DNA of 50,123 bases from Acidobacteriota bacterium (GTDB lineage: Bacteria; Acidobacteriota; Polarisedimenticolia; Gp22-AA2): the NCBI GenBank assembly GCA_018606725.1, contig JAGYID010000009.1, forward strand, positions 1-50,123, read 5' to 3'. Below, in pieces: positions 1 through 20,409 of this stretch; the stretch's first letter is position 1; each line of letters begins with the position of its first letter. The notes under the pieces are model-generated. The model did no database searches and was not told the DNA's origin. It worked only from the letters and a program-made list of their open reading frames with translations. The position numbers and the translations under genes are program-made.

Positions 1-115
1 GAGCGCTTTGTAGCCGAGCCCGCCGTGCGGAGCGCGAGCGAGCACCGCCCGTCGGCGTTCTCCAGCCGATCCGGGCGGCGCGCAGCGTGCCCCGCGAGGT
101 GCAGGCCGCCGCCCC
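1..115 (+). repeat. Partial copy of a dispersed GC-rich repeat
   Basis: The first ~112 bases match 19546-19657 in the same orientation with only about six mismatches (for example at 35, 62, 83, 100 and 104). The second copy is the right part of a larger set of inverted repeats at 19236-19660, so this is probably the end of a similar element whose left part lies outside the window. An open reading frame runs through it into the permease gene, but the repeat is better explained as non-coding; this supports placing the permease start downstream at 192. Confidence 0.8.
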
Positions 116-2391: not shown

Positions 2392-5013
2392 TTACTCTCG
2401 AACGGCCGGGCCAAAGACCGTCGAGAGCCCGTTCTTGTGGAGGATCTCGATGTAGACGTTGCGGCCGCTCTTGTGCTTCGGGATGAAATACGCATAACTA
2501 GCCCCCAAGCCGGTGATGCATTCCTCGCACGGGATGCGCACATGGTTCAACAGTGTCCGGGCTCCCTGCGCATTGAGAGTGAACAGGTTGAACCCGATGA
2601 GGTTGAACTCGGACGCGGTGGTCCAGGTTGCCGTCCCTGACCCACGGCTCAGTTGCGACCCGAATGAAGTCGTGAATGCGACGATCTCGGGAGTGTTGTC
2701 ACAGACATCGCCCAAGAGGTCGCCATCAATGTTCTCCTGACCCGGGTTGGGAACCGTCGGACAGTTGTCGCTCGCGTCGCACACACCGTCGCCGTCAGCA
2801 TCCGCGTTTCCAGGACAGCTTTGATTGACAAGCACCACAATCGTGCTGGCGCTCCCCAGAGAGCTCGCGACCAGGAGGTCGGGGCGCCCGTCCTTGGTGA
2901 CATCCTCCGCGATCAGACCCACGGGATCCGGCCACGCGGCGAAGTGCTGCGCAGGCGTGAGTCTGGACCCATCGTTCAGGAAGATCGCAACGCTACCGGT
3001 TCTGAGGTACGCGACGCCCAGATCCATCCGGCCGTCCACGTTGAAGTCCTTCGCGACGACCGGGGAGGGCCCATCGACGGCAGCGAGGACGATGGGAGCG
3101 CCGAAGGTCCCGTCCCCTGCGCCGAGGAGGAGAGACACGCCGTCGGGAAACAGGGCGCTTGTGCCGAAGGGGAGATCGTTGGACACCGCCAGATCTTCCA
3201 TCCCGTCGGCATTGAAATCACCGATCGCCACGGAGGTCGGATAGCTACCGGCGCCGAAGGTGACCTGCGGCTGGAAGGTCCCATCGCCCCTGCCGATCAA
3301 GATGGATACATCGTGCGAGTTGAAATTTGCGACGACCAGATCGGTTCGACCGTCGGTATCGAGATCCCCGACGGAGATGAATCTCGGACTTGTGCCCACC
3401 GGCAGGAAGGATGCGCTCGCGAAGGAGCCATCGCCGTTCCCCAACAGAACGGAGAGAGCATTGGATCCTTCATCGGCGATCGCAACGTCGGCTCGCTGGT
3501 CGCCGTTGAAGTCGCCGACCACCACATGGACAGGGGCCGTACCTACAGGAACCCGGGTCGGTGATGAAAAAGTTCCGTCACCCGACCCGAGAAGAACGAG
3601 AGCATCGTAAATCGTCGTGAAAGGTCGCGGACTGTGATCGACCGCGATCAGGTCCTGTCGGCCGTCGCGATTGAAATCCCCGACGGCGACTGACCGGACA
3701 TCGCCTCGGGCGGGGAATGAAGTCTCGGCGCCGAAGAGGCCACCACCGGTCCCCAGGACCACTGAGACCGAGGCCCCACTTCCCCAGGCAAGGTCGATTT
3801 CACCATCCGAGTTGAAATCGCCGGCCACCGTGGTAGGCGTGGCCGAGGCGAATGAGCGTGGCGGCACGATGAAAGTCCCATCCCCTTTGCCGATGTAGAC
3901 GGTGTTGGTGTGTCCGACGGCAACGTCGAGGTGCCCATCGGCGTTGAAGTCGGCCGCTGCGGTCGGGCTGCCGCCTCCCCTCCCGCTGTACAAGGTTTGC
4001 GGCAGTGAGCGAAAGGTTCCGTCACCGTTGCCGAGAAACATCGCCAGCCCCTCGGCGACGTCGGGCCATCCATCGCCGTCAAAATCTCCTGTCGCGGGAG
4101 TCGAGACGCAGCAGGATGGAAGGCTCCCTGCCGGGGTGATCGTCCCGCTCGCGCTTCCCAGATAGATCGTGCCCCCGACCGGCAGGACGAGGTCGAAGAT
4201 TCCATCCCTGTTGAAATCGGCCACGGCGGGCTTGAAGCTGCAAAAGGGGACAGAGAAGAAAGGGCCCGCCGTAAAGTTTCCGTCACCCCTATTGAAAAAG
4301 AACGCCAGATAGGTGTTCGGAGGATCGAAGCTCTGCCCTCCCGTGATCGCCAGGTCCACCTTCTGATCGCCGTTGAAATCACCGACCGCGACCGCCTGTG
4401 GGTTGGGTCCGACCAGTAGCGTCCGGGCCGTGAAGGTGCCGTCACCGTTGCTGATGAGGACGGCAGCGCTGCCGTCACTGCTGAAGGAGTTCGGGACGAT
4501 GATGTCGTCCATCCCGTCTCCGTTCAGGTCGGCCGCCGCAAGTGCGCGAGGGCCATACCCGATTGGAAAGCGCACCGGCGGCGCGAAGGTTCCGTCGCCG
4601 CCCCCCATCAGGATCGAGATATCGCTGGGGTACGGAAAGCTTCCTCCGGAATCGAAATTGGAGACCGCGATATCGAATGCTCTATCCCCGTTGAAATCAC
4701 CCACCGCGATATAGACGGAGAAACCTGCCGGACCGTTCCCGACGGGAAGGCGGACCCCGGTCGCGAAAGCGCCGCCACCAAGACCGAGGAACACGGATAC
4801 GTAGCCTGTGCCTGGAGTCGGGAGCGCCAGGTCGGCTTTGCCGTCGTGATCGAAGTCGGCGACTTCGATCTGGTAGTACGTCGTTGGGTCTACGACGAAC
4901 TGCGGGTTGGGGAAGAGCGGTGCCGCCACGATCGGGCCCACAACAACGATGGCCAGCGCCGGCAATAAGATGCCGATATGCTTCACGCGGGTACCGAGAG
5001 TGCGCTTCGTCAT
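2392..5013 (-). CDS. Large secreted VCBS/FG-GAP repeat protein with thrombospondin type 3 repeat
   Basis: An 873-residue exported protein. A signal peptide (KHIGILLPALAIVVVGPIVA, about residues 10-29) is followed by some 13 FG-GAP/VCBS-type repeats of the form DFNGDGxxDLA...LLGxGDGTF that fill residues ~45-740. Such repeats bind calcium in Asp loops and build beta-propellers. Then come a Cys/Asp-rich thrombospondin type 3 segment (DADGDGVCDASDNCP) and a C-terminal beta-sandwich-like region (TATWTTASEFNLIGFN) common at the end of exported proteins in Acidobacteriota-like genomes. An AGGAGG site sits directly before tandem ATGs at 5016 and 5013; spacing favours 5013, and the longer in-frame start at 5130 has no such site. 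The gene is visibly less GC-rich than the genes around it and lies next to transposase debris. Role unknown; surface adhesion or structure is plausible. Confidence 0.85.
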   Translation of the reverse strand: MTKRTLGTRVKHIGILLPALAIVVVGPIVAAPLFPNPQFVVDPTTYYQIEVADFDHDGKADLALPTPGTGYVSVFLGLGGGAFATGVRLPVGNGPAGFSVYIAVGDFNGDRAFDIAVSNFDSGGSFPYPSDISILMGGGDGTFAPPVRFPIGYGPRALAAADLNGDGMDDIIVPNSFSSDGSAAVLISNGDGTFTARTLLVGPNPQAVAVGDFNGDQKVDLAITGGQSFDPPNTYLAFFFNRGDGNFTAGPFFSVPFCSFKPAVADFNRDGIFDLVLPVGGTIYLGSASGTITPAGSLPSCCVSTPATGDFDGDGWPDVAEGLAMFLGNGDGTFRSLPQTLYSGRGGGSPTAAADFNADGHLDVAVGHTNTVYIGKGDGTFIVPPRSFASATPTTVAGDFNSDGEIDLAWGSGASVSVVLGTGGGLFGAETSFPARGDVRSVAVGDFNRDGRQDLIAVDHSPRPFTTIYDALVLLGSGDGTFSSPTRVPVGTAPVHVVVGDFNGDQRADVAIADEGSNALSVLLGNGDGSFASASFLPVGTSPRFISVGDLDTDGRTDLVVANFNSHDVSILIGRGDGTFQPQVTFGAGSYPTSVAIGDFNADGMEDLAVSNDLPFGTSALFPDGVSLLLGAGDGTFGAPIVLAAVDGPSPVVAKDFNVDGRMDLGVAYLRTGSVAIFLNDGSRLTPAQHFAAWPDPVGLIAEDVTKDGRPDLLVASSLGSASTIVVLVNQSCPGNADADGDGVCDASDNCPTVPNPGQENIDGDLLGDVCDNTPEIVAFTTSFGSQLSRGSGTATWTTASEFNLIGFNLFTLNAQGARTLLNHVRIPCEECITGLGASYAYFIPKHKSGRNVYIEILHKNGLSTVFGPAVRE

Positions 5014-9000: not shown

Positions 9001-9742
9001 GGCGTTCGTCGGGGCGTCCGGCAAGCCGATCCTCGGCTTCTGGTTGTTCTTCGTCATGGCCCTCGGCATGGGGCTGCCGTTCCTGGTCCTGGGGGTGTTC
9101 TCCGGCGCGCTCGCCAACCTGCCGCGCTCGGGCGGCTGGCTGATCTACGCCAAGAAGGTCATGGGGATCGGTCTCCTGGCGGTGGCTCTGTATTTTCTGC
9201 AGCCGTTCCTGAGCGACCGGGTGCTTGGCTGGGCGGCGCTCGGCTTCGGCGTCGGCGCCGGGCTCTATCTTGCGTTCCTGGAGCGCACCCGCATGGCGGC
9301 GCGCTCGTTCCCGGTCGTCAAGTCGGCGATCGGCGCCGCCGTGGTGGTGGTGACGTTGTGGCTGGCGCTGCCGCTGGTGCAGACCCGGCCCGGTCCCGCC
9401 TGGCGGCCATACAGCCACGAGGCCTATGCAGCGGCGCTCTCCTCGGGCCAGCCGGTGATCATCGACTTCTTCGCCGACTGGTGCCTGCCGTGCAAGGAGC
9501 TCGACCGCTTCACGTTCTCGAATCCGCTGGTCCTCGATGAAACCCGCCGCTTCGTCCTCCTGAAGGCCGATCTGACGCAGTTCGAGTCGAGTCAGGTCCG
9601 CGACATCCGCGATCGATTCGCGGTCATCGGCGTGCCGACCATCGTGTTCGTCGACAGCCGCGGACAGGAGCCGAAGGACCTGCGCCTGTATGGATTCGAG
9701 GAAGTCCCCGCCTTCGTGGCGCGCCTGCAGAAGGTGCGCTAG
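6059..9742 (+). CDS. YyaL/DUF255 thioredoxin-like protein fused to DsbD-type thiol:disulfide reductase
   Basis: A 1227-residue fusion. A signal peptide (to about residue 26) leads into a complete YyaL/SSP411-like protein: a Trx-like domain with CHWC (C76, C79) and DREERPDLDR, then an alpha/alpha-barrel glycosidase-like region (GGLHDQIGGGFHRYS, HFEKMLYDNALL, LTAWNGLM) to about residue 620. After an Ala/Pro-rich linker comes a DsbD: a DsbD-alpha-like domain (about 660-800) with Cys in VGYQACSHKVCL, a CcdA-like membrane core with TPCVYP (C857) and APCIGP (C972), and a C-terminal thioredoxin with WCLPCK (C1142, C1145). DsbD passes electrons from cytoplasmic thioredoxin to periplasmic partners, so the first half is probably a periplasmic client. 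A TAGAAT -10-like box ends nine bases before the ATG, with no ribosome binding site, suggesting a leaderless start. The TAG stop lies in the inverted repeat of the next element. Confidence 0.9.
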   Translation: MSLMRLPLAIATIALLLAASPPPASAATNHLAGQTSPYLLEHLGNPVDWYPWGDEALRRARVEDRPIFLSIGYSACHWCHVMERESFEDAGIAAVLNARFVPIKVDREERPDLDRIYMAAVVALTGGGGWPMSVFLAPNLQPFFGATYLPRDRFLEILNGVARTWAERRDQVIATAAKVQAMVEQELAAGPAAEAPVPAPELRAAAIDSLRAGFDRRDGGFGAAPKFPPYGALAILLRSHAATGDAEALDMAVRTLDAMARGGLHDQIGGGFHRYSTDARWFAPHFEKMLYDNALLAPLYLEAWKQTGRVDFRRVAEGALAWAGREMTDPAGAFYATLDADSEGEEGRFYLWTTAEVRRVLGDDEARLVIDYYGMTEAGNFRAGQNILYVPVPVPLPDFARRKQLDGTGLRARLDADRAILLAVRDRRPRPHRDGKILTAWNGLMISTLARAAQITGDDAWRASAERAATAIAARVQSGDGRLRASWTSGRAGPPGYLDDYAFLARAYLDLHATTGRRSWLDRAASTVRAAAPFRDPGGGFFFTSEEHRDLIARAMDFQDTSLPSGNAIMAECLVRLADALGETGWRDEAARTIRRAAPGMRRSPVAYASMILAAESLESPPAPAVEPAAAGPGAAAGEPAAGVAAGGVARGTVVGRANAERVVEGTIATPALTIRPGQAVTLSLELSIKDGWHVNSHAPTLEYLIPTKVTLPSPGQAMVDSIDYPAGKLVTLEFAKEKLSVYEGRTTIRVNLRPSPDGPDGPQGARAIVLRVGYQACSHKVCLAPETLEFSVLLTVEGEPVALSPAPADAAGAVPGDAPGATDGAGGMGAVLAERGLLGFLVLIFLAGLALDLTPCVYPLVPVTISFFAGQASGSWGRRIALPSLYVLGMALTYSLLGVAAGLSGGLFGATLQNPWIVGVLVLLFVGMALSMFGLFEFRLPGFLTRFGGGRRGPIGALIMGLTMGIVAAPCIGPFVVGLLAFVGASGKPILGFWLFFVMALGMGLPFLVLGVFSGALANLPRSGGWLIYAKKVMGIGLLAVALYFLQPFLSDRVLGWAALGFGVGAGLYLAFLERTRMAARSFPVVKSAIGAAVVVVTLWLALPLVQTRPGPAWRPYSHEAYAAALSSGQPVIIDFFADWCLPCKELDRFTFSNPLVLDETRRFVLLKADLTQFESSQVRDIRDRFAVIGVPTIVFVDSRGQEPKDLRLYGFEEVPAFVARLQKVR

Positions 9743-9886
9743 GAGCCTGTCCGGGTATTCGGCCGGGCCGCGCGCATGGGGCTTGCGCGTCGCAGACAAG
9801 GAGCGAGGAGGACAATGACCCTGGTCGGTCATCGACGACGAGCGACGCGGAACGCGGTCCAGCCCAATACTCGGACAGGCTCCTAG
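9739..9886. mobile_element. 148-bp MITE/REP-like element with terminal inverted repeats
   Basis: The ends are near-perfect inverted repeats: 9739-9762 (ctaggagcctgtccgggtat...) and the complement of 9863-9886 match at 22 of 24 positions. The interior has no coding capacity but contains a small hairpin around 9813-9830 (atgacc/ggtcat). The left repeat supplies the TAG stop of the upstream fusion gene and the right repeat supplies an in-frame TAG six bases before the TTG start of threonine synthase. A 29-bp copy of one end recurs at 30559-30587 with two mismatches. No transposase is nearby, so it would need to be moved in trans. Confidence 0.75.
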
Positions 9887-17426: not shown

Positions 17427-17542
17427 AGCTTGCCGGATTTCAGGAGGCGGTAGAAGCACCAGCCGGTGACGGCGGCGATCCCGCCCCAGGCCACCAGCAG
17501 GAAGACCCAGCCGGAGCCGTGGAGCCCGACCGCGCCGCTCAC
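17423..17542 (-). CDS. MetS-like small subunit of the NSS symporter
   Basis: A 39-residue single-span membrane peptide: VSGAVGLHGSG, then the hydrophobic WVFLLVAWGGIAAVTGWCFY, then RLLKSGKL. Its GTG start overlaps the stop of the NSS transporter gene as GTGA, and a GGAGG site lies about six bases upstream inside the transporter's last codons, so translation is coupled. Tiny one-helix proteins in this position are known as the small subunit (MetS) of MetP-type NSS methionine/alanine importers in Actinobacteria; size, topology and position all match. The sequence similarity itself is too short to judge by eye. Confidence 0.72.
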   Translation of the reverse strand: MSGAVGLHGSGWVFLLVAWGGIAAVTGWCFYRLLKSGKL

Positions 17543-19122
17543 GCGTCCCTCCGCGAGCGGGCGGCCCTGGCGCGCCCGGCGGCGACAATGAGCAGCAGGA
17601 AGAGCAGCAGGATTACACCCATCATGACGCGGGCCCAGAGGGTGGCGGGCCGGTCATCCGGAGCGACGTTCTTCATGAGCAGGGTCGGCACCCCCTGCTG
17701 CCACGTCCAGGCGATGAACAGGATGCCCAGGTAGACGGGCGTGACCCAGCGGATGATGTGGTAGAAGAGTCGCGGCAGCCGGATGTCGGCGCCCCGCGTG
17801 ATCTCCTCCCAGGCGTTGTCCATCCCGAACACCCAGGCGAACAGGATCACCTCGATGAAGGCGAACAGGCTCAGCCCCAGGGTGCCGGACCAGAAATCCA
17901 TCTCGCCGAGGAACGGCCGGAAGAAAACGACCGGCTGGATGACCAGGAACACGACACCGGCGAGAAGCAGGGCGGCGCGCTGGCGGGCGATGCCGAACTC
18001 CTCCTGAAGCCAGGCCATGATCGGCTGGCCCATGGCGACCGACGAGGTGATGCCGGCGAAGAACAGCAGGCCGAACCACAGGCAGCCGAACAGGTGTCCG
18101 AACGGGATCTTCTGGAAGATGATCGGCATCGCCTGGAAGCCGAGGTCGAAGGGGGAGGACGACGCGATCGCCTGGGTTTCGGTCAGCCCGAAGAATGCGA
18201 CCGCGATCGGGATGGCGATGCTGCCCCCGAGGATGACCTCCGCGAACTCGTTGGTCATCGCGGTGGTGAGCCCGGTGAGCGCCAGATCGTCGTTCTTCTT
18301 CACATAGCTGGCGTAGCACTGGATCGAGCCCATGCCGAGGCTGAGGGTGAAGAAGATCTGACCGGCGGCCGCCAGCCAGGTGCCGCTGTTGCCCAGCTTG
18401 GAGAAGTCGGGGTTCCACAGGAACCCGAGCCCGGCGCCGACGCTCCACTCCGGGTGGGCCGGGTCGGGCGCTCCCAGCGTCAGCACGCGGGCCGACAGGA
18501 CGATGGCGAACAGGAACAGCAGCGGCATGGCGATCTTGGCCAGCCGCTCGATGCCGCCGGCGATGCCGCGATGCAGGATCCAGATGTTGAGCCCGAGCGT
18601 GATCAGCATGAAGACGTAGGCGGTCTCCAGACCGCCGCCGAAGTACGGGCTCGCCGCCTGTCCCTGGAAGGCGTTCAGGAAGGCGCCCATCTCTCCGCGG
18701 CTGGTGATCCCGAAGTACTTGCCGGTGGCCGAGAAGAAGCTGTACGCCAGGGTCCACGACTCGATGTAGGTGTAATAGACCAGGACGATGAGCGGGTTGA
18801 ACAGGCCGAGCACGCCGAGGTACTTGACCCAGCGCCGCCGCCCGAGCGCCTGGAACATCCCCGGCGTCGAGCCGTGCCCGTGCTGGCTGCCGCCGTGCCG
18901 GCCGATCGCCCATTCCACCCACATGAGAGGGATGCCGAGGAGGAGCAGCGCCACGAAGTACGGGATCAGAAAAGCGCCGCCGCCGTTGCGGGCGGCCTGC
19001 ACCGGAAAGCGGAGAAAATTCCCCAGGCCGATGGCGTTGCCGGCCATGGCCAGGATGAGCCCGAGGCGCGACGCCCACGCCTCGCGCGGCAATCCCAGCG
19101 GATCCGATCCGGGTTTCGCCAT
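17539..19122 (-). CDS. Sodium-dependent transporter, NSS (SNF) family
   Basis: A 527-residue, roughly 12-helix Na+-coupled symporter of the neurotransmitter:sodium symporter family. The TM1 motif (GLILAMAGNAIGLGNFLRFP) carries the unwound GNAIGLGN stretch that binds sodium and substrate in LeuT. The FLIPYFVALLLLGIPLMWVE motif and the TM6-7 region (FTLSLGMGSIQCYASY) are also intact. The substrate is probably an amino acid. No ribosome binding site precedes ATG 19122, but a TAAGAT box sits six bases upstream on the coding strand, which fits a leaderless message. A small membrane peptide follows with a GTGA overlap and is probably its accessory subunit. Confidence 0.93.
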   Translation of the reverse strand: MAKPGSDPLGLPREAWASRLGLILAMAGNAIGLGNFLRFPVQAARNGGGAFLIPYFVALLLLGIPLMWVEWAIGRHGGSQHGHGSTPGMFQALGRRRWVKYLGVLGLFNPLIVLVYYTYIESWTLAYSFFSATGKYFGITSRGEMGAFLNAFQGQAASPYFGGGLETAYVFMLITLGLNIWILHRGIAGGIERLAKIAMPLLFLFAIVLSARVLTLGAPDPAHPEWSVGAGLGFLWNPDFSKLGNSGTWLAAAGQIFFTLSLGMGSIQCYASYVKKNDDLALTGLTTAMTNEFAEVILGGSIAIPIAVAFFGLTETQAIASSSPFDLGFQAMPIIFQKIPFGHLFGCLWFGLLFFAGITSSVAMGQPIMAWLQEEFGIARQRAALLLAGVVFLVIQPVVFFRPFLGEMDFWSGTLGLSLFAFIEVILFAWVFGMDNAWEEITRGADIRLPRLFYHIIRWVTPVYLGILFIAWTWQQGVPTLLMKNVAPDDRPATLWARVMMGVILLLFLLLIVAAGRARAARSRRDA

Positions 19123-19235
19123 GCACCAATCTTAATGATGAGTGAGAGAAACGGCAGCGGTTCGACCGCCAAGTCCGGCGCATTATCGGCACCGCCCCCA
19201 GACCTGTCAAGGCCGCACGTCACGGATGGCGCGCT

Positions 19236-19660
19236 GAGAACTCCCCGGTCGTGCGGGGGCGGCCCGGAGTGGGGTTGGCGGGGACGCGCGGTCGCCGCGC
19301 CCGGATCGGCTGAAGAACGCCGACAGGCGCGGCGCCGCTCGTCGCTCCCGCGCCCGGCCGCCGAAGAGCGGCGGCTTGCGGGCGCGGTCCGCGATCGCCC
19401 CGCCAACCCTACTCCGGGCCGCCCGTCACCCCCGAGAACTCCAAGAGCGCCATCCCGCGATCGAGGCGGTGACGGGTGCGGAAGGGCGCGATGGTGACGG
19501 GTCGGCGGCGTGCCCTCGCGGGGCCGTCGCGGAGCACGGCGGAGCGAGCGCTTTGTAGCCGAGCCCGCCGTGCGGAGCGGGAGCGAGCACCGCCCGTCGG
19601 CGTTCTTCAGCCGATCCGGGCGGCGCGGAGCGTGCCCCGCGAGGCGCACGCCGCCGACCC
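19236..19660. repeat. Interleaved inverted-repeat element in the 19.1-19.7 kb intergenic region
   Basis: The 630-base gap between the NSS and HAD genes holds at least three sets of inverted repeats: 19257-19283 against 19398-19424 (26 of 27 positions pair), 19300-19327 against about 19590-19617 (core ggatcggctgaagaacgccg), and 19501-19523 against about 19637-19658 (core gtcggcggcgtgc). The pairs are nested or interleaved rather than one simple stem. The right portion from 19546 recurs at window position 1 with about 95% identity. Frames on both strands are arginine-rich noise, so I read it as a non-coding repetitive or structured element. Confidence 0.75.
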
Positions 19661-19704
19661 AGCACCTCAGATGCTTACGCGACTGACGCGGGGCCGCGAC
19701 GACC

Positions 19705-19734
19705 TTGATTGGGCGGCGGGCGAGATGCTAGGAT
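19705..19734 (+). promoter_or_regulatory. Promoter for the HAD phosphatase gene
   Basis: TTGATT (19705-19710) and TAGGAT (19729-19734) have an 18-base spacer. The start would fall near 19741, followed by the ribosome binding site AGAGGAG (19744-19750) and the TTG start at 19756. It lies just outside the repeat element. Confidence 0.6.
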
Positions 19735-19755: not shown

Positions 19756-20409
19756 TTGGTCCGCGGCATCATCTTTGACTTCGACGGCACTCTGATCGAC
19801 TCCTACGAGGCCATCGCGGAGAGCCTCAACCACGTCCGGACGTCCTTCTCGCTGCCAAACCTGCGCATGGACGACGTCAGGGGGATGGTCGGGCACGGCC
19901 TGGAGCACCTGATCAGCGAGGCGGTCGGGGGGCAGCACGTCGACGAGGGCGTCCGCCTGTTCCGTCAGTCGTACGCCACCCTGTGCGAGAAGAAGACCCG
20001 CATCCTGCCCGAGGTCAAGGAGACCCTCGACCAGCTCGATGGCCGCGGCTACACGATGGCGATCGCCAGCAACAAGCCGTCGTATTTCGCGCGCGATATT
20101 CTGAAGGCCCTGGAGATGGAGCACCTGTTCGCCGAGGTGCTCGGCCCGAACGACGTCGACAAGCCGAAGCCCGACCCGGAGATGCTGGAGATCATCATGA
20201 TGCGAATCGGGCTGTCCCCGGATGAAGTGGTCTACGTGGGCGACATGTTGCTCGACATCGAAGTGGCCCGGCGCGCCGGCGTCGCGGTGTACGCCATCCC
20301 GACCGGCTCCGCCACCCGCGAGTCCCTGCTGGATGGGCGGCCCGACCGCCTGCTGCACCGCTTCGCGGAGCTCCTGACGGTCATGCCGGTGGTCTCGGCG
20401 GGACGCTGA
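19756..20409 (+). CDS. gph: HAD-family phosphatase, phosphoglycolate phosphatase-like
   Basis: A 217-residue cytoplasmic HAD hydrolase. The nucleophile motif is FDFDGTLIDS (D8, D10), motif II is AIASNKP, the lysine is in DKPKPDP and motif IV is YVGDMLLDIEVARRAG. A helical cap lies between residues 15 and 80, as in phosphoglycolate phosphatase (Gph) and pyrophosphatase PpaX. These subfamilies cannot be told apart reliably by eye, so the substrate is an inference. The start is TTG 19756, with a good AGAGGAG site five bases upstream and the conserved FDFDGT only six residues in; no ATG fits. Confidence 0.85.
   Translation: MVRGIIFDFDGTLIDSYEAIAESLNHVRTSFSLPNLRMDDVRGMVGHGLEHLISEAVGGQHVDEGVRLFRQSYATLCEKKTRILPEVKETLDQLDGRGYTMAIASNKPSYFARDILKALEMEHLFAEVLGPNDVDKPKPDPEMLEIIMMRIGLSPDEVVYVGDMLLDIEVARRAGVAVYAIPTGSATRESLLDGRPDRLLHRFAELLTVMPVVSAGR

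Follow-up and report, generated by a model that had tools for sequence, protein, structure and literature searches.

Between two divergently oriented genes of an Acidobacteriota draft genome, three pairs of inverted repeats overlap in a single intergenic region, part of which recurs at the very start of the same contig; what kind of sequence is this? The window, i.e., the whole 50,123-nucleotide stretch of DNA analyzed, is the complete contig C138 (G000:C138:1-50123) of the G000 draft, which comprises 3,735,650 bases in 235 contigs. A sequence-only reading had suggested, in place of a simple MITE, either alternative folds or a composite made up of palindromic units. We conclude that the region holds a member of a family of miniature transposons that had not been filed before; they are small, carry no genes, and have cloverleaf ends, and their status as mobile DNA is well supported. 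The best explanation, which we regard as probable, is a non-autonomous foldback MITE that has spread within one Acidobacteriota family and for which we infer an IS4/IS10-like mobilization.

Two inverted cloverleaf units form the element

The element in the window is about 437 bp long. Its parts, and the features around it, are as follows.

1–115, minus strand: unit of the right type, truncated where the contig ends; 95% identity with 19546–19660
17539–19122, minus strand: left neighbor, sodium-dependent transporter family gene (NF037979 above cut-off)
19182–19210, minus strand: sigma70-type promoter pointing outward on the left side; −35 TTGACA (19205–19210), 17 nt, −10 GATAAT (19182–19187); score 14.5; serves the divergent transporter gene
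19234–19670 (both ends approximate), no strand assigned: whole element, made of left unit, ~60-bp spacer, and inverted right unit; outer ends set at CTGA-like tips
19234–19246, plus strand: left tip CTGAGAACTCCCC, matching CTGA-N3-(A/C)TCCCC (Tn10-like end); score 15
19255–19430, plus strand: left cloverleaf unit with three-way junction and GTCACC at its end; R1 model 155.6 bits; fold z −9.7
19257–19283, plus strand: 5′ arm of the left-unit outer stem P1 (partner 19398–19424)
19293–19334, plus strand: left-unit hairpin P2, with a conserved GATCGGC..GCCGAC core
19348–19387, plus strand: left-unit hairpin P3, from the fold and the unit alignment
19398–19424, plus strand: 3′ arm of the left-unit outer stem P1 (partner 19257–19283)
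19431–19489, no strand assigned: spacer, loosely conserved among copies
19490–19666, minus strand: right cloverleaf unit, the inverted homologue of the left unit by alignment; R1 107.8 bits; fold z −8.0
19501–19523/19637–19658 (P1), about 19591–19627 (P2), and about 19534–19573 (P3), minus strand: right-unit stems
19705–19734, plus strand: sigma70-type promoter pointing outward on the right side; −35 TTGATT (19705–19710), 18 nt, −10 TAGGAT (19729–19734); score 9.8; serves the HAD phosphatase gene
19756–20409, plus strand: right neighbor, HAD hydrolase gene, phosphoglycolate phosphatase-like

Every unit is ~175 nt long and consists of an outer stem (P1) and two hairpins (P2 and P3) around a three-way junction. 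The left and right units are oriented so that their GTCACC 3′ feet face one another, with about 60 bp between them. A transposase gene of the element's own was sought by gene prediction and in the ORF list, and no credible gene was found inside it.

The three inverted pairs that had been noted were all recovered. The first (19257–19283/19398–19424; 96%) and the third (19501–19523/19637–19658, the right-unit stem) are the outer stems of separate units, whereas the second (19293–19329/19591–19627; 92%) looks long-range because the units are inverted homologues; its P2 core pairs locally in each of them. Competing folds through the interleaved arms were thus ruled out, and the whole-element minimum-energy fold retains both local cloverleaves, contrary to the proposal that arms unable to pair together would impose alternative folds. 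The other proposal, that palindromic units are combined here into something other than a simple MITE, was borne out, since the element is built of two ~175-nt inverted homologous foldback units that are multicopy and carry many compensatory changes. As for the second copy reported at the window start, the repeat is real (94.8% identity between 1–115 and 19546–19660, over 115 nt), but it is not a partial element: the contig's first base cuts through a full unit. Gene starts lie downstream of both copies, as had been described.

The window also holds an unrelated inverted-repeat element of ~148 bp at 9739–9886, with arms CTAGGAGCCTGTCCGGGTATT... and the second arm at about 9870–9886 (plus strand), which is another MITE family; its CTAGGAGCCTGTCCGGGTATT tip gave 47 matches, some of them overlapping, with up to 1 mismatch in G000 and in some of the G002 loci examined. 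Separately, a gene region at about 3100–4870 is rich in direct repeats (45- and 26-nt families) and appears FG-GAP/VCBS-like by eye.

Paired changes preserve the cloverleaf fold

Folded as ssDNA, the whole element reached a z score of −10.5, and 0 dinucleotide shuffles were as good as the element or as either of its units, the scores of which are given above. Across 57 units from G000, G002, and G007, the covariation score was 0.318, compared with 0.076 for shuffled and 0.036 to 0.080 for slid controls. Changes on both sides occurred in 33 of the 50 pairs, and standard pairs filled 96% of the pair cells; cells changed on both sides numbered 369 in these units, versus 124 in shuffled and 62 to 98 in slid controls. 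The signal was also present in the 37 units from G002, G007, and G003 alone (0.234 versus 0.065). Further genomic copies and compensatory changes, the absence of which had been named as grounds against the sequence-only reading, are therefore both present, with about 60 units in G000 and the covariation just given.

Departures from standard pairing were balanced, with 31 G·T and 34 A·C mismatches. A functional RNA made from one strand would be expected to accept G·U but to reject A·C, and the fold is therefore kept either as DNA or by arm-to-arm repair. Template switching between arms is another way in which pairing can be restored, and it would mimic selection; the compensatory changes are not claimed here as proof of function. 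Some copies, such as one left unit (G000:C189:28326-28500), have 5′ and 3′ arms of P1 that are of differing sequence types, which suggests exchange or recombination between copies.

Amplification within one family and filled and empty sites

Searches with the whole element, with each half, and with a covariance model detected about 60 units in G000. Contig ends inside the repeat, counted from the listed coordinates, numbered about 33 besides the window's own; the elements break short-read assemblies, with about 34 contig ends of the G000 draft falling within one. An extra 0.4 Mb of G000 contigs, picked by number, yielded only one already-known fragment. Three relatives, all within a single GTDB family, gave matches to the covariance model: G002 (29 units, or 24 at a stricter cut), G007 (5), and G003 (1). 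The model search of genomes found none in G001, in G004 to G006, or in the rest of the class. This patchy, lineage-specific amplification counts as support for a mobile element. In G000 and G002 alike, the elements pair two differentiated kinds of unit in inverted orientation; solo and broken units are common, and the promoter-facing unit differs among copies. A public-genome scan with a unit 20-mer returned 44 matches, nearly all apparent chance GC-rich matches, and one clear element, in JACQNT010000095.1 ('Acidobacteria bacterium isolate NC_groundwater_1262'), to which one G002 stretch is identical. No copy was found in viral contigs searched with the exact core pattern, nor in plasmids.

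One orthologous locus was traced through seven genomes. The element is present in both G007 (C121) and G003 (C96), between flanks that are 81 to 86% identical, and each retains a different unit of a putative ancestral inverted pair. The site is empty in G004, G005, and G006, which belong to the same genus: 4 to about 120 nt separate the upstream stop codon from the promoter, with no element between them. A TTGACA-17-TATAGT promoter is conserved at the empty-site locus. Filled and empty orthologous sites thus coexist within one genus, which identifies the element as mobile DNA.

At the same locus, a short ORF ending in CCCPICP / CCCCPICR was observed downstream of the TTGACA-17-TATAGT promoter in G000 (C37) and G001 (C50). 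This ORF resembles a cysteine-sensing leader peptide; the Rfam search returned no match for it.

Tips and target duplications in G002 resemble those of IS10

Within the IS4 family, CTGA tips and a 9-bp target duplication go together in the IS10/IS50 group. The outer ends of the elements of G002, the best-preserved relative, have CTGAG.YATCCCC..TT in common on both sides, and CTGA-N3-ATCCCC is common to these tips and the Tn10 outside end, which begins CTGATGAATCCCC (oligonucleotide, PMC2705183). The 9-mers flanking six G002 elements matched at 34 of 54 positions in the expected register, versus 7 to 21 of 54 in 16 others (binomial p of about 1e-7, or 1e-4 without element C34). This six-element signal is dominated by C34, which has a perfect CCCAGAAAT duplication; the remaining target duplications in G002 have decayed. 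No target duplication was seen in G000, whether the ends were taken from the outer stem or from CTGA-like tips; 22 of 90 positions matched at register 0, no register was prominent, and the right tip is weak and hard to place. Because of this unseen duplication and uncertain right tip, the window copy was not filed as a member of the IS4/IS10-type MITEs, and for G000 the IS4 assignment is therefore carried over from its relative G002.

The search for Y1_Tnp (PF01797) gave nothing above cut-off in 12 draft genomes of the family and order, with positive controls. A scan for the IS4 YREK motif, which covered about 1.3 Mb of loci (overlaps included), gave no match, in drafts of a kind from which repeats drop out. 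An autonomous copy was also sought by comparing ten genes from small contigs that carry the element with Pfam; all were ordinary host genes.

In the mechanism that we propose, an IS4/IS10 (Tn10-like) DDE transposase would act in trans, recognizing the CTGA-N3-ATCCCC tips and making a 9-bp staggered cut. The cloverleaves would work as DNA, either by forming a hairpin or cruciform that serves synapsis or protection, or through a paired state kept by arm-to-arm repair, and insertion may be directed to, or only tolerated at, the upstream edge of promoters.

Many copies adjoin outward promoters

In G000, every copy that was inspected falls between genes. An outward sigma70-type promoter (score above 6) was found in 31 of the 57 outward flanks, compared with 2 inward flanks and 6% of random genomic stretches. 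When only flanks facing gene starts were considered, about 31 of 46 carried a promoter, compared with a baseline of 64 of 172 (37%) for ordinary G000 regions upstream of genes, 60 nt or more in length (p = 0.0004). The genes that neighbor the copies have no common function.

Promoter-locked placement is striking in G002 and loose in G000. The −35 box is located exactly 29 nt from the unit in 12 of the 18 promoter-facing ends of G002, and in 15 of the 18 it lies exactly 12 nt from the tip, in the arrangement GTCAA-N12-CTGAG (N12 read by eye). On the far side of the G002 elements, the distance to the neighboring stop codon is not fixed. No fixed spacing was found in G000, where unit and −35 box are mostly 19 to 52 nt apart and tip and box roughly 16 to 35 nt. 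Spacing this precise points to a mechanism, at least in G002, whether through choice of target or through functional phasing. We tentatively suggest that the element might address the sigma70 promoter or promoter-bound RNA polymerase and join near −48, which is 12 bp upstream of the −35 box. The open-access literature yielded no precedent for promoter-locked insertion by a bacterial element.

Alternative explanations

The first candidate was a giant REPIN, in which a Y1 tyrosine transposase (RAYT or Acidobacteria 'TIRYT') would move two inverted REP-like hairpins as ssDNA. Inverted doublets with 55- to 125-nt spacers, heterodimers, and DNA-level pairing correspond to the REPIN layout (PMC3116915, PMC3733652), Acidobacteria have been reported to have Y1 proteins that are TIR-flanked or of class 3, with atypical secondary structures, and G000 is without visible target duplication. 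However, this candidate was downgraded after the Y1_Tnp searches in the 12 genomes of the family and order came up empty with positive controls, and we consider it unlikely: its units would be 175-nt three-way junctions instead of 20 to 40 nt, the GTAG foot is missing, the CGTC tag is not conserved in G002, the foot differs between G000 and G002, and the 9-bp duplications of G002 also speak against it. The very strong covariation and the intergenic location might instead belong to a structured RNA, non-coding or a leader, that was either copied or inherited and works through its fold once transcribed. An RNA function was rejected on wobble symmetry, G·U departures being as frequent as A·C ones, and on position, the units lying upstream of and outside the transcripts from the flanking promoters. 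The unit is, moreover, present on both strands of the inverted pair, and the Rfam search identified no family, all of which makes this explanation very improbable.

Two further explanations concern what keeps the copies where they are. Formerly mobile DNA could have been domesticated as a cis-regulatory or insulating sequence, kept 12 nt above the −35 box for transcription (cruciform buffering, or a site for an activator or architectural protein). A helical-phase requirement would yield the exact G002 spacing, and a decayed copy is retained at one orthologous locus in two species; yet the promoter-facing unit varies, solo and broken units are common, the flanking genes lack a common function, and the same promoter is kept in the empty-site relatives, so that we give domestication little credence. 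Alternatively, insertion could be random, with purifying selection sparing the copies that fall in the gap between the −35 box and a stop codon or second promoter. This passive location is a possibility to be taken seriously, though short of probable, and it covers placement alone and is compatible with a non-autonomous foldback MITE. Gaps from stop codon to −35 box at empty sites are as short as 4 to 40 nt, upstream regions of G000 score as promoters at the 37% baseline regardless, and the G000 spacing is loose. Set against this are the fixed distances in G002, 29 nt from the unit in 12/18 and N12 from the tip in 15/18, and the far side of the element, which has no fixed distance.

Comparison with known systems

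The foldback MITE described here resembles IS4-family MITEs (IS10/Tn10-like ends) in being non-coding and under 600 bp, in its CTGA-N3-ATCCCC inverted tips, in its many intergenic copies, and in the 9-bp duplications seen in G002. Unlike those MITEs, it has inverted ends of ~190 bp, each folding into a cloverleaf, and a promoter-side location, and its autonomous partner was not found. DNA ends that fold into hairpins within an outer stem are also known from attC sites and from AAV-type T-shaped terminal repeats, a likeness by description for which no sequence similarity is claimed. With REPINs/BIMEs and their RAYT (PMC3116915, PMC3733652), the element shares the foldback inverted doublet, heterodimers, within-genome amplification, and structure at the DNA level, whereas its unit is 5 to 8 times longer and has a three-way junction, with no Y1 gene and no GTAG tag. 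REPs lie, according to the literature, mostly downstream of coding regions; the element lies upstream of genes. The TIRYT TIR families of Acidobacteria (PMC3733652) likewise have long inverted repeats in dimers and belong to the same phylum, and the GGGGTGAC stretch beside the left unit fits the TIRYT motif GGGGWSAS (PMC3733652), but the TIRYT gene is absent from the searched genomes of the element's family. The element adds a family of large miniature transposons that fold into cloverleaves, with direct filled- and empty-site evidence of movement, to a phylum known mainly from metagenomes. If the 12-bp spacing reflects targeting, this would be a promoter-addressed bacterial element, with a bearing on how mobile DNA enters compact genomes without breaking genes, and, were promoter targeting true, a bacterial counterpart to the promoter-targeting retroelements of eukaryotes.
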